A DNA stretch of 64,000 bases from the NCBI RefSeq assembly GCF_001995095.2, contig NZ_MTSD02000001.1:930001-994000 (forward strand). The letters run 5' to 3'. Below the pieces are notes generated by a model. The model was not told where the DNA came from, searched no databases, and saw nothing but the letters and a program-made list of their open reading frames with translations. A program made the translations under genes and the position numbers. The stretch comes from Oceanospirillum linum (GTDB lineage: Bacteria > Pseudomonadota > Gammaproteobacteria > Pseudomonadales > Halomonadaceae). Shown in pieces: positions 38,888 to 44,816 of the stretch (within the stretch, counting starts at the first letter, position 1; each line of letters opens with the position of its first letter).

Positions 38888-38919
38888 ACTGATTCCCGAT
38901 GGAGCAAATAGTAACCGGA

Positions 38920-40242
38920 TTAGTTTTTCGCCGACTTAGCAACCGACCTCTTTTTACGAACACCTTTCCGCCTTGCCCGATATTTAAACAGCCAGAGCCT
39001 AAGAGCCGTTACTGCCAACCAAACAGAAGCCACCATCAGCAGCAAGCTTAACATTCTGCTCCACCAACCCAGCTCCGACTTATGCACCGCCTCAAAACCA
39101 GCGGTCATGACATCCACTTTACTCGCCCCTGTCGCCTGAAAACGCGCCAGCAGCTCACCGCTGTGCGCATCAAACCAAACACTGGTCTTAGCGCTCTCAT
39201 CCGAATAGTCCAGCGAAGAGTAACTACGATACAGATAAGTGCCTTTAAAAGCGGAATGAGATAAACCAACTGGCTGTAGCCGTTCAAAGCCTTGCTCTTT
39301 CGCCCACATCTCCGTCAGGTGCTGCCCCGTGGCTACCGCCAGCTCAAGGCTCATCGGTTGTACCTGCCCCAAAGATGAGGTCTCGATAGCTTTATGGGAT
39401 AGCTGCCTCTGATTAAGAGGGTCAAATATCCCATAATACACAGGCTTTAAGTTGTAACTCAGCCCGGACAACAGAAAAACAACCACCAGCGGCGTAAACA
39501 CCAGCCCGAGCCAACGATGGTTAAAAAAGTCATTCTGAAACCGGCTTTTCCCTTTTCGATATTTCCAAAAGCTAAGCCAGTGCAGCAGATCCTGTCGCCA
39601 TTGTTTTTTGCTCTTATTCGAATACCGGAGAGCGCTGTGGTGTGGCCAGCTCAGATACATACCCACAGGAATCATCAGCAACCAAGCCAATGTCAGCCAG
39701 CCCAGAATCACCCGTCCCTCCTGTCCAGCCAATACCGAATAATGCAGTTTGTAGATCAACGGCATCAGGTTCAACAGCGGCTGCTCTACCGAAAATACCC
39801 CCCACTTGCGCCCGCCCAGCACCTCTCCGCTGTACGGGTTCACAAAGATCTGGTTATGGACTGGAGCGTGGTAATGACCAACGTCATTCCGCATTCCGGC
39901 AATCCAGAACACAGCCGCAGGCTGCACACCGCTCTTCCGCACCTGCTGATAACCTGATTCTTTATAAAAACTCAGATCAAACCAGCTGATTCGGGCCTGT
40001 GGATAAGCGGTTTGAATCCGTTTTTGCAACTGCCCAACCGACAGAGGCTGAGTATACAGGTCATACTGCTCAATCAGCATCAGATCAGCATTCAACCACT
40101 GATCCAGCTCCTGTTTATAAACCAGCAAGCCACCAGTCAGGGATAACAACAGCACCGGCAGAATCAGCAACAGCCCCAGCCAGCGGTGGAGCAGGAGGAA
40201 GGTGTGGCGGTTTAGGATAAGAGCAACCTCGATGATAAAAAT
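38920..40242 (-). CDS. PepSY-associated membrane protein lacking a normal start codon
   Basis: A four-helix PepSY_TM-family protein, thought to act in siderophore or heme reduction at the inner membrane, with PepSY modules in the long periplasmic loop. The family's conserved start region, L-L-L-H-R-W-L-G-L-L-L-I-L-P-V, is translated upstream of the first usable codon, a TTG at 40170. In the open frame back to the stop at 40279-40281 there is no ATG, GTG or TTG ahead of that block. An ATT at 40240-40242 after GAAAG is the only plausible site I can point to. The 5' end may have been cut off by the adjacent Abi-like gene, whose stop is at 40256-40258. Confidence 0.75.
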   Translation of the reverse strand: MFIIEVALILNRHTFLLLHRWLGLLLILPVLLLSLTGGLLVYKQELDQWLNADLMLIEQYDLYTQPLSVGQLQKRIQTAYPQARISWFDLSFYKESGYQQVRKSGVQPAAVFWIAGMRNDVGHYHAPVHNQIFVNPYSGEVLGGRKWGVFSVEQPLLNLMPLIYKLHYSVLAGQEGRVILGWLTLAWLLMIPVGMYLSWPHHSALRYSNKSKKQWRQDLLHWLSFWKYRKGKSRFQNDFFNHRWLGLVFTPLVVVFLLSGLSYNLKPVYYGIFDPLNQRQLSHKAIETSSLGQVQPMSLELAVATGQHLTEMWAKEQGFERLQPVGLSHSAFKGTYLYRSYSSLDYSDESAKTSVWFDAHSGELLARFQATGASKVDVMTAGFEAVHKSELGWWSRMLSLLLMVASVWLAVTALRLWLFKYRARRKGVRKKRSVAKSAKN

Positions 40243-40255
40243 TCTTTCAAAAGTA

Positions 40256-41293
40256 TCAGTATCGGCGATGCGCCTTAGCTACAACACCCAATACAGCCTC
40301 ATCTTTGACTACAATATAAGCAGTTCTTTTTTTCAGGACATTACTAGCTTTACTCAGGCTTTCAGTACCGCTACACACTGAAAAGTTATCAGCCAACGCC
40401 TGCTCTTCTATCAACTGACCAAGCTCTTTCTCCCTCAAATCAACTACAAGCTCCCCTGCCTGCTGGAAAGATAAAAGATAAGATGCAATATGCTGAGCCT
40501 CTACAACAGCCATTAGGTCACCGGAAACATCACAGCACAGTAAAAATCTTGCTGCAGGCAACTGATTTAAAGCCATAGTAACCGGAACGACCCCAAAATC
40601 AGCATCACATCGATCCTTAAAGAAAGGTGAAAACTCACCATTCTTAGAAGGTCTTGTACGCAAGATCTGATTCACGGTTGAGTAGTGCTTTACCCATTCT
40701 GCAGTCTCCTTGCAAAACCAACCAATGACATTAAGAATCTGACTGTGTTGGGCAGAGATATTTTCCTTATGAATAGGCTCATGATGAGCAATTCTGTTTC
40801 TAAATTTATTCAGATCACGAACTATCTTCTGAAACTCTTTACGTGTTGTTTTTTCCGCATTGGGTAACAAATCACTCATATGCTTTTGCCAAAAAGGCCT
40901 GTCATACTCCGGACGGAAAAGATTCGACCAAAAATCAAATGTCAGTGTTGCCACCACATCATTTAAGCTCGCTGACTTGGCTCGTGCGATTCCTTTATCC
41001 AGGGCATCAGAGCTATCTTTAGACAAAACAGCCCGAAAATAAGATTCATGTAGCCAATTTGAACCAAACTCTGCGCTAAAAACAGCACTCATATGATTCC
41101 GCAAAGACACTTCCAAAACATGCAACGGAAACAAAAATGCCTTAGATAATCTAGCGTTATAGAGGTATAGGTTAAAAGCGTACTCTTCAGAATAACCCGC
41201 ACTCTTTAGATAAGGAGCTAGCCGACCTTCAGACAAGCTTGCTCGAAGCGGAGTAAAACTTTGGTATGGATACGGCAGTTGACTTTCAGCCAT
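40256..41293 (-). CDS. Abi-family HEPN protein with C-terminal CBS-like pair
   Basis: A 345-residue soluble protein. Residues about 20-200 match the Abi_2/AbiD/AbiF group. The HEPN RNase motif R-N-x3-H is present as F164-R165-N-R-I-A-H170-H-E-P-I. Residues about 231-276 and 294-343 look like two CBS domains (A-A-R-F-L-L-C-C-D-V-S-G-D-L-M-A-V-V and T-A-Y-I-V-V-K-D-E-A-V-L-G-V-V-A), which usually bind adenine or guanine nucleotides. The CBS reading is by eye. The gene lies downstream of guaB-guaA, past a terminator, and is AT-richer than its neighbours. The likely role is phage defence by RNA cleavage (inference). Confidence 0.7.
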   Translation of the reverse strand: MAESQLPYPYQSFTPLRASLSEGRLAPYLKSAGYSEEYAFNLYLYNARLSKAFLFPLHVLEVSLRNHMSAVFSAEFGSNWLHESYFRAVLSKDSSDALDKGIARAKSASLNDVVATLTFDFWSNLFRPEYDRPFWQKHMSDLLPNAEKTTRKEFQKIVRDLNKFRNRIAHHEPIHKENISAQHSQILNVIGWFCKETAEWVKHYSTVNQILRTRPSKNGEFSPFFKDRCDADFGVVPVTMALNQLPAARFLLCCDVSGDLMAVVEAQHIASYLLSFQQAGELVVDLREKELGQLIEEQALADNFSVCSGTESLSKASNVLKKRTAYIVVKDEAVLGVVAKAHRRY

Positions 41294-41378
41294 GAAGAAC
41301 TAAAATCCTAGTCAGAGCAGTTGGAGAGGTCCCTCTGGTTGAAAAATCAACTACGCACCACCAACAATCTATATAGAG

Positions 41379-41411
41379 CCCCGAGACAGATGACTTTCAT
41401 CCCTCTCGGGG
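41379..41411 (+). terminator. Orphan plus-strand terminator
   Basis: CCCCGAGA (41379-41386) pairs with TCTCGGGG (41404-41411) and is followed by TTTCGCTTTTT on the plus strand. No plus-strand gene precedes it in the window. Confidence 0.55.
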
Positions 41412-41495
41412 TTTCGCTTTTTCAGGGCATGTTAAAATATGCCTGAGTCTAATACCAGCATATCGCAACGTGCATTCAATCCCCTGAAAAACAAA

Positions 41496-41521
41496 AAACC
41501 CCTGAATTTCTTCAGGGGTTT
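41496..41521 (-). terminator. guaA: Terminator of guaA
   Basis: AAACCCCTGAA (41496-41506) and TTCAGGGGTTT (41511-41521) around TTTC. On the minus strand the stem is followed by TTTTT, 48 bases after the guaA stop. Confidence 0.85.
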
Positions 41522-41568
41522 CTTTGTATCAGCTAACTGATATCAGTGGACTTATTCCAGAGGAACAG

Positions 41569-43146
<1,578 letters not shown>

Positions 43147-43302
43147 TATTTTACCAACCCATCAATAAAGTAACGGTCTGCCCGGGATGAACAGCCTGTA
43201 TAAAGTGGTCGTCCGGCCAGCAGCAGGTGCTGTTCCGGGAATCATTCGTGCGCCTGCGCCGACGCGTTATTCCGGCATGACATGCCAGGCATGCCTTAAA
43301 TC

Positions 43303-43329
43303 AAAAGTGGGGCGCAATGCCCCACTTTT
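43303..43329 (-). terminator. Terminator between guaB and guaA
   Basis: AAAAGTGGGGC (43303-43313), five-base loop, GCCCCACTTTT (43319-43329), just after the guaB stop. Confidence 0.8.
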
Positions 43330-43346
43330 CAGTACCGGTTAACAGA

Positions 43347-44816
43347 TCAACTCACCCGATAATTCGGAGCTTCTTTGGTGATCTGTACATCATGTACGTG
43401 GGACTCCATCATGCCGGCACCTGTGATCTTCACAAATTCAGGCTTGGTACGCATGGTCTGAATATCACCACTTCCGGTATACCCCATGGACGAGCGCAGA
43501 CCGCCCATCAACTGATGCACGATAGCCGTCATAGAGCCTTTATAAGGCACACGACCTTCAATACCTTCCGGAACCAGCTTCTCTACGCCAGCATCTTTAT
43601 CCTGGAAGTAGCGGTCACTGGAGCCCTGAGCCTGCGACATAGCACCCATAGAGCCCATACCACGGTAGGACTTGTAAGAGCGGCCCTGATATAGCTCGAT
43701 CTCGCCCGGTGCTTCTTCAGTACCAGCCAGAAGGCCACCGACCATGACAACGCTGGCACCGGCAACGATCGCTTTAGCCAGATCACCAGAGAAGCGAACA
43801 CCACCGTCAGCAATCACAGGAATATCGTATTTTTCCAGTGCAGAAGAAACATTCGCTACTGCAGAGATCTGAGGTACGCCAACACCTGCAACAATACGGG
43901 TGGTACAGATAGAGCCAGGACCAATACCCACTTTAACCGCATCAGCACCGGCTTCAGCCAGCGCAACGGCAGCTTCAGCTGTTGCAATGTTGCCACCGAT
44001 GACCTGAACCTGAGGGAAGTTCTCTTTCACCCAGCGAACACGCTCGATAACACCTTTCGAATGGCCATGGGCGGTATCAACCACGATCACATCAACGCCG
44101 GCCTCAACCAGAGCAGTAACACGATCAGGGGTTTCAGCACCTGTACCGACTGCAGCACCCACACGCAGACGACCATCTTCATCTTTGCAGGCACTCGGGT
44201 AAGTACGAGCTTTCTCGATATCTTTAACGGTCACCAGACCCTGCAGATGGAACTCATCATCCACAACCAGTATTTTTTCGATACGGTGCTGGTGCAGCTT
44301 AGCTTTAATCTCATCCAGGGATGTGCCCTGCTTAACCGTTACAAGTTTTTCTTTTGGGGTCATGATGTTGGCAACAACATCATCCAGATTCGGTTTGAAG
44401 CGAAAATCACGACTGGTTACGATACCTACCAGCTCATCACCGTCTACAACTGGCATACCAGAAAAGCGAGTATCAGCTGTTAGGGCAAGCACTTCGCTTA
44501 CTCTTGTAGAGGGCGTTACCGTTACAGGATCTTTAACGATAACACTTTCGTATTTCTTAACCTGACGCACTTGCTGAGCCTGCTGAGCAATGGTCATATT
44601 TTTATGGATAATACCGATACCACCTTCCTGCGCCATCGCGATTGCTAAGCGAGATTCAGTAACAGTATCCATCGCCGCAGATACCAGCGGGATATTAAGA
44701 GAGATACCACGGGTGATTCGTGTCTTCAGGCTGACGTCATTCGGGAGGACGTCTGAGTAACCTGGAACCAGCAAAACATCATCAAAGGTGAGTGCTTCTT
44801 GAGCAATACGTAACAT
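43347..44816 (-). CDS. guaB: Inosine-5'-monophosphate dehydrogenase
   Basis: A 489-residue IMPDH, the NAD-dependent step from IMP to XMP. It has a TIM barrel with an inserted CBS pair (about 95-205), catalytic cysteine in G-P-G-S-I-C-T-T-R, and the flap motif [10 protein letters not shown]. The frame is open to 44864, but [14 protein letters not shown] at 44816 is the standard IMPDH N-terminus. It is divergent from xseA with 189 bases between, matching the order in E. coli. Confidence 0.97.

Follow-up and report, generated by a model that had tools for sequence, protein, structure and literature searches.

A conserved structured RNA upstream of a mobile HEPN-CBS gene in Oceanospirillum linum suggests a possible doubly gated RNA toxin-antitoxin

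Within the window, the 64,000-nt stretch of the Oceanospirillum linum genome analysed here, a gene for a predicted HEPN-CBS protein is positioned on the minus strand 3' of guaB-guaA, and a conserved structured RNA directly precedes its start codon. The features of the locus are as follows.

40256-41293, minus strand: HEPN-CBS gene, 345 aa with an ATG start, a predicted AbiF-like HEPN ribonuclease with a C-terminal CBS pair
40259-40636, minus strand: CBS pair, about residues 220-345, with a conserved HRRY tail at its end (family profile, Pfam, model, Foldseek)
40649-41293, minus strand: HEPN (Abi_2) half, about residues 1-215 (Pfam, alignment, helical in the model)
40784-40801, minus strand: RNxxxH motif, R165-N-R-I-A-H170 (RNRIAH), with R, N, A and H invariant in 28/28 aligned rows
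41316-41422, minus strand: conserved structured RNA of 107 nt that ends 22 nt before the start codon (covariation, folding, covariance model)
41320-41365, minus strand: RNA domain P2-P3 with a variable hairpin P4; the conserved core stops 38 nt short of the start codon
41379-41411, minus strand: RNA hairpin P1 of 11 modelled pairs, compensatory changes being present in 8
41493-41524, minus strand: terminator-like hairpin following guaA, between guaA and the RNA element

By its sequence the N-terminal half is an Abi_2/AbiF-type HEPN domain with an intact RNxxxH motif, for which RNase activity is predicted. The first-pass annotation had described this half as Abi_2-like and read the motif as R165-N-x3-H170, and both observations hold. 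Pfam Abi_2 (PF07751) matches residues 28-174 above its cut-off (E 7.6e-8, 33.3 bits; cut-off 25.6), as does HEPN_Swt1 in the same half (E 2.1e-6), while the PADLOC profiles PD-T4-5 (E 2.5e-12) and AbiD (E 1.1e-6) and a PHROGs abortive-infection family (E 2.8e-5) match the window protein. In an alignment with 27 relatives R165, N166, A169, H170 and E172 are invariant (28/28 rows), and at E <= 0.01 PD-T4-5 matches 28/28 and AbiD 25/28 of the aligned proteins. The Abi_2 profile scores of two relatives (L014, L018) fall slightly below the cut-off.

The C-terminal half is not acceptable as CBS from the window protein alone because Pfam has no CBS match there, neither in the complete protein at E <= 10 nor in the half searched by itself at E <= 1; the single direct hint is NCBIfam cysta_beta (E 0.13). 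At the level of the family the fold is recovered. Pfam CBS (PF00571) is detected in 10 of 19 family C-terminal halves (best E 4.2e-6), and a profile built on these 19 halves finds 36 PDB sequences at E <= 10 (best 6.1e-6), the six under E 0.001 being two CBS-named sequences, two Ta0289 entries, SNF4 and OpuCA. An AlphaFold2 model from the 28-row alignment has a mean pLDDT of 91.8 and a pTM of 0.72 (a single-sequence model with a pLDDT of 36.4 was set aside), and Foldseek with this model returns mostly CBS-containing structures among the best 50 of 355 matches (probability 0.99-1.00; best E 1.4e-3, none < 0.001 among these 50). Cystathionine beta-synthase, MgtE, AMPK and a named CBS pair are among ranks 1-14, and PbAbiF in complex with ncRNA (PDB 8vz6) follows at rank 15. 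In a viral fold library the one CBS protein had E 0.091, and no other match was convincing. The family profiles and the confident model support two tandem, divergent CBS folds, so that the CBS pair proposed earlier for residues 220-345 is borne out for the family. Members from both gamma- and alphaproteobacteria retain this half, its linker positions invariant and its HRRY tail nearly so; in three relatives (L036-L038) it is longer and divergent, CBS-like by eye. What we take to be the usual CBS nucleotide-binding motif positions look largely altered in the window protein by eye, and the HRRY tail presumably sits roughly at the position of the nucleotide-contacting aspartate motif of CBS domains.

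When as much as 300 nt before the window gene and 29 relatives is compared, a conserved block stands out ahead of the start codon. Identity across 16 loci rises from 32-39% at -300 to -141 through 47% at -140 to -121 to 61-75% at -120 to -21, and drops back to 37% at -20 to -1 before the ATG. RNAalifold on 22 aligned rows gives 20 pairs, 13 of them changed on both sides, with 98.2% of 435 cells paired and a covariation of 0.482 against a shuffled mean of 0.209 (0/500 shuffles reach it) and at most 0.087 when the partners are slid. Between groups P1 changes from CCCCGAGA/TCTCGGGG to CACCAGGT/ACCTGGTG and P2 from TTG/CAA to TCG/CGA and CTG/CAG; P4 is visible by eye and in the fold of the single sequence. 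The window RNA has a minimum free energy of -42.1 kcal/mol (z -4.05, 0/200 shuffles as low), and eight RNAs folded singly have z from -2.06 to -4.47. The distance from the core to the start codon is nearly fixed, 36-41 nt in 24 of the 26 loci having the core (31 examined). No sigma-70-like promoter was found on the minus strand between 41280 and 41600. The possibility that the RNA is the guaA terminator was rejected, as the terminator hairpin is separate (41493-41524) and the RNA is found at unrelated loci. This element is missing from the earlier interpretation of the locus, and its presence means that the mechanism likely differs from the one then proposed.

Covariation shows the RNA to be structured, and searches with a model of it (R1) show its linkage to the gene. 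Of the 31 loci that are full-length or nearly so, 29 have a sense-strand R1 match directly upstream of the gene at E <= 5.2e-6; 22 of these are the rows from which the model was built, and the other seven comprise the near-copies L022, L030, L103 and L105 and the more independent L014, L015 (these two alike) and L038. Up to E 10 there are 47 matches over the 31 loci: 30 in the sense direction at the RNA (these 29 and L045 at E 0.069), 12 antisense at the RNA (best 1.5e-6), which arise because P1 is nearly palindromic, and 5 elsewhere (E 0.028 to 4.9). The match at L045 is weak and P1-like, L021 has none, and L040 has none in a search of 88 loci. That search (1.09 Mb, up to E 10) gave 18 matches, all sense and upstream of HEPN genes. 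Among 62 relatives with the HEPN half only or shortened, R1 matches 7 at E <= 10 and 3 at E < 0.01 (L087, L041, L055). In 398 genomes of the phylum R1 gives two matches at E <= 1e-5, its own locus and one in genome G997, where a 208-aa HEPN gene lies ~100 nt downstream. Among the 369 class genomes weak matches occur at 7 places in 6 genomes (E 5.1e-5 to 7.3e-4); the loci are short, their listed ORFs are not HEPN-CBS-like, and these matches were taken as chance. An alpha-type P1 pattern occurs in viral contigs at five stretches, each on a contig with a previously found HEPN-CBS gene, which tests specificity rather than discovery since the pattern was read from the same loci; a gamma-type RNA pattern has no match in the viral contigs.

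Rfam 15 (4,227 families) offers no plausible match at the window locus up to E 10: its 13 rows are all far under the gathering scores and cover 41316-41422 only via the guaA hairpin region or coding sequence, and at the loci of eight relatives there is no match up to E 1. The abiF RNA family (RF03085) in particular is found neither in 38900-44000 up to E 10 nor at these eight loci up to E 1. The library can detect abiF RNA, since one lies elsewhere in the window genome (38.1 bits, cut-off 37). At that locus (L115:1501-2555, contig C109 from 318906) the abiF RNA ends 26 nt before a gene for a 327-aa AbiF with the motif RNLCAH. The window genome thus carries both kinds of RNA, abiF RNA and the RNA upstream of HEPN-CBS.

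Two damaged copies of the gene, one frameshifted (L026:8001-9028) and one shortened (L035:8001-8708), keep a strong upstream RNA match. On two cases, RNA kept beside broken or shortened copies is what an RNA guarding against the protein would lead one to expect.

Other motifs recur upstream of genes encoding HEPN-only relatives (loci L042-L101), and by eye class C often follows a terminator-like hairpin. In the 200 nt upstream of the 62 HEPN-only or shortened relatives, class B is present at 20, class C/D at 15 and none at 27, using patterns written after the sequences were read; base shuffles expect about 0.03 loci per motif, and B and C/D have no antisense occurrence and none at 400-1000 nt upstream. 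Rfam has no match to the class B and C/D motifs in 7 loci searched. Class B has the core GCGCATG...CAGAGG in common with the HEPN-CBS RNA by eye, and its structure, computed on L080 plus 17 pattern matches out of 20 (18 rows, with L052, L054 and L061 left out), is 94.9% paired with 2/12 pairs covarying. For classes C and D RNAalifold gives only weak, partial structures with badly placed rows, and no structural claim is therefore made. In the window genome itself a further HEPN-only relative (L002, contig C220) has by eye a class-C-like hairpin upstream of position 1501.

On an 87-row HEPN tree (midpoint root, near-copies left out, sixteen B/C/D labels given by eye beforehand) classes B, C and D require 2, 3 and 1 changes, against shuffled means of 21.8, 15.0 and 9.6. 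The CBS genes, including L045, fall together with three P1-type relatives on one 26-row branch (99/96), and L021 is placed apart on a long, unsure branch. We read this tree as suggesting that RNA guarding may be old and that the CBS pair was probably added on one branch of the HEPN clan.

The HEPN-CBS gene is mobile, with relatives on plasmids, chromosomes and phage contigs in unrelated places. By tblastn 538 plasmid records match, 64 of them with coverage of at least 80%; the best 30 rows are 4 from Acinetobacter, Pseudoalteromonas and Shewanella (39.5-42.1% identity) and 26 Agrobacterium/Rhizobium plasmids (37.9% identity). A genome scan gave 537 relatives, and among the best 80 of these 13 match along the entire length, with a broken frame in one (L026). 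Full-length members are encoded on six viral contigs, one of which (L103) looks like the same DNA as L028. Single-sequence scans of genome contigs and viral contigs found nothing, and samples of 151 family, 293 order and 369 class genomes, each counting the own genome (limits E 1e-5, 1e-5 and 1e-20), contain no full-length match outside it, other matches spanning at most residues 7-249.

On two phage contigs (L106:7208-10494 and L108:3229-6567) the HEPN-CBS gene lies within the structural gene cluster, flanked there by a DUF6441 gene and a tail gene. In L106 portal, protease and major head genes precede it, with the DUF6441 gene on one side and a small ORF, the tail gene and a tape measure gene on the other, so that it resembles inserted cargo in a phage structural operon. 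Among the phage contigs an upstream gene is common to L104, L107 and L108 and a tail gene to L105, L107 and L108. Clustering of the neighbouring ORFs of 29 loci gave no recurrent protein partner, and a conserved partner was rejected as shared sets occur only among near-copies, at one to four loci or on phage contigs; local neighbours are a DUF6236 gene (two Acinetobacter plasmids) and a PLD-domain gene (pTi plasmids). The defence-island neighbours for which a survey of homologues had been suggested are not consistently found around the relatives.

The gene is absent from all five congeners (E <= 1e-5), and the stretch after guaA is variable, differing in each of them. In G004 a PepSY gene directly follows guaA, then PHA synthase, as if the site were empty; in G044 two ORFs (MFS and LysR by reading) lie between guaA and the PepSY gene; and G056, G028 and G067 have no PepSY gene within the stretch examined, where a Lamassu-type set of LmuA/B/C genes is present in G056, a RES-domain gene and a gene matched by PADLOC 'cll' in G028, and an AAA ATPase gene in G067. 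This stretch can hold defence cargo, and the guaBA neighbourhood is therefore no evidence for guanine sensing. The hint of guanine-nucleotide sensing that the first-pass annotation took from guaB-guaA was rejected, as the five congeners lack the gene, their stretches after guaA differ and relatives elsewhere lie in unrelated places.

The closest known systems are the AbiF/abiF RNA pairs (RF03085; RCd22-AbiFCd; PbAbiF, 8vz6), which likewise combine an Abi_2-type HEPN protein bearing RNxxxH with a structured RNA directly upstream, occur on mobile elements and have the same layout as the AbiF and RF03085 locus of the window genome. In contrast, the RNA described here is ~100 nt, folds as P1 and P2-P4 and has no RF03085 match, and the window protein carries an additional C-terminal CBS pair. 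By binding it directly, RCd22 is reported to neutralise C. difficile AbiF both in cis and in trans (PMC12373285), and a review describes the PbAbiF-ncRNA complex and reports AbiF-type RNA toxin-antitoxins as Cas13 ancestors (PMC12737573). The available description of DS-11 from DefensePredictor (PMC13092281) presents a single protein with CBS and HEPN domains, residues of both being required for phage defence, which makes a defence reading plausible here. Its CBS domain contains Y157, whereas residue 157 of the window protein lies in the HEPN half, so that from residue numbering alone the domain order seems different, and that description mentions no RNA partner, unlike the upstream RNA here. 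DNA-level searches of an E. coli genome collection with the Erwinia and Klebsiella members gave no match. According to PMC9519451, PD-T4-5 comes from a plasmid, is a distant relative of AbiF/D and acts in abortive defence; the match to it is partial, its best stretch (125-211 of a 309-position profile) lying opposite the RNxxxH region. CBS-fused HEPN proteins were proposed as nucleotide sensors controlling RNA stability by Anantharaman et al. 2013 (PMC3710099), whose examples in the accessible text, CBS with HD (alr3009) and a Pelobacter protein, are set apart by their description alone, which mentions no RNA element. The nucleotide-sensing HEPN-CBS idea (PMC3710099) and a validated CBS+HEPN defence protein, DS-11 (PMC13092281), are thus already known. 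The upstream RNA and its union with HEPN-CBS were not found in the accessible open-licence literature; the covariance models that Zilberzwige-Tal et al. (Cell 2025) made for AbiF, known through PMC12804078, could contain it.

A structured RNA adjacent to and linked with a predicted toxin gene is a type III-like arrangement, and we lean towards a compact, mobile HEPN toxin-antitoxin or abortive-infection unit in which the RNA would restrain the RNase and the CBS pair would sense a nucleotide. By analogy with abiF RNA and AbiF, the ~100-nt RNA, which we infer to be transcribed ahead of and probably together with the gene, would fold into P1 and P2-P4, bind the HEPN protein and keep the RNase inactive. 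A nucleotide whose level changes upon infection would bind the CBS pair, shift the protein or its grip on the RNA and so release the RNase to stop growth or the phage; both the ligand and the direction in which it acts are guesses. The toxin-antitoxin reading draws on the published precedents AbiF-RCd22 and DS-11, the PbAbiF-ncRNA structure among the Foldseek matches, the covariation, the linkage at 29/31 loci, the G997 match and the AbiF with abiF RNA in the same layout in the window genome. Against it stand the altered positions of the presumed CBS motifs, the lack of a promoter match, the gaps at L045, L021 and L040, the lack of a recurring partner and the R1 match (E <= 10) in only 7/62 HEPN-only relatives. 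The earlier proposal of a nucleotide-gated defence RNase survives in its HEPN and CBS parts and in a probably defensive role (family, fold, mobility, DS-11), and loses its guanine hint; it had overlooked the RNA.

The near-fixed distance to the start codon (36-41 nt in 24/26 loci), together with best matches per locus on the sense strand directly upstream, would also fit a cis-acting 5' leader, whether autoregulatory, attenuating or processed, with the HEPN-CBS defence protein controlled by its CBS pair only, as proposed for DS-11. We regard such a leader as rather unlikely, since HEPN relatives without CBS have other upstream motifs that track their phylogeny, the AbiF of the window genome has an upstream abiF RNA, and the motif-bearing RCd22 antitoxin is reported to act also in trans (PMC12373285). 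A CBS pair serving dimerisation or stability only, without a regulatory ligand, beside an RNA antitoxin and HEPN toxin would suit a half that is divergent, invisible to Pfam in the window protein and mostly altered at what we take to be the nucleotide motif positions; its retention in gamma- and alphaproteobacteria with invariant linker positions and the near-invariant HRRY tail, and the requirement for a CBS residue in defence by DS-11 in the available account (PMC13092281), make this improbable. The position 3' of guaB-guaA is what a housekeeping RNA-processing or stress RNase tuned to purine level would call for, an explanation that is scarcely tenable for a gene that is missing from five congeners and their stretches after guaA, has no full-length match besides its own genome in the family, order and class samples and has members on plasmids and phage contigs.

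At its most far-reaching, the toxin-antitoxin reading is a doubly gated RNA toxin-antitoxin, in which a new RNA family would restrain the AbiF-like HEPN RNase and a CBS pair sensing an infection-linked nucleotide would release it. The CBS clade would then be one branch of a wide HEPN clan with upstream RNA types particular to its branches, RNA guarding being old and sensing added on one of them; we advance this tentatively, at somewhat less than even confidence. Covariation in the RNA is strong, Rfam 15 contains no match to it, and R1 already found one more HEPN locus in unseen genomes. The trigger of AbiF-type RNA toxin-antitoxins is little known, and here an RNA guard and a candidate sensor occur together in one locus, making it testable which nucleotide binds and whether the RNase then leaves the RNA. 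If true, two ways of arming anti-virus defence would be joined in one short locus.
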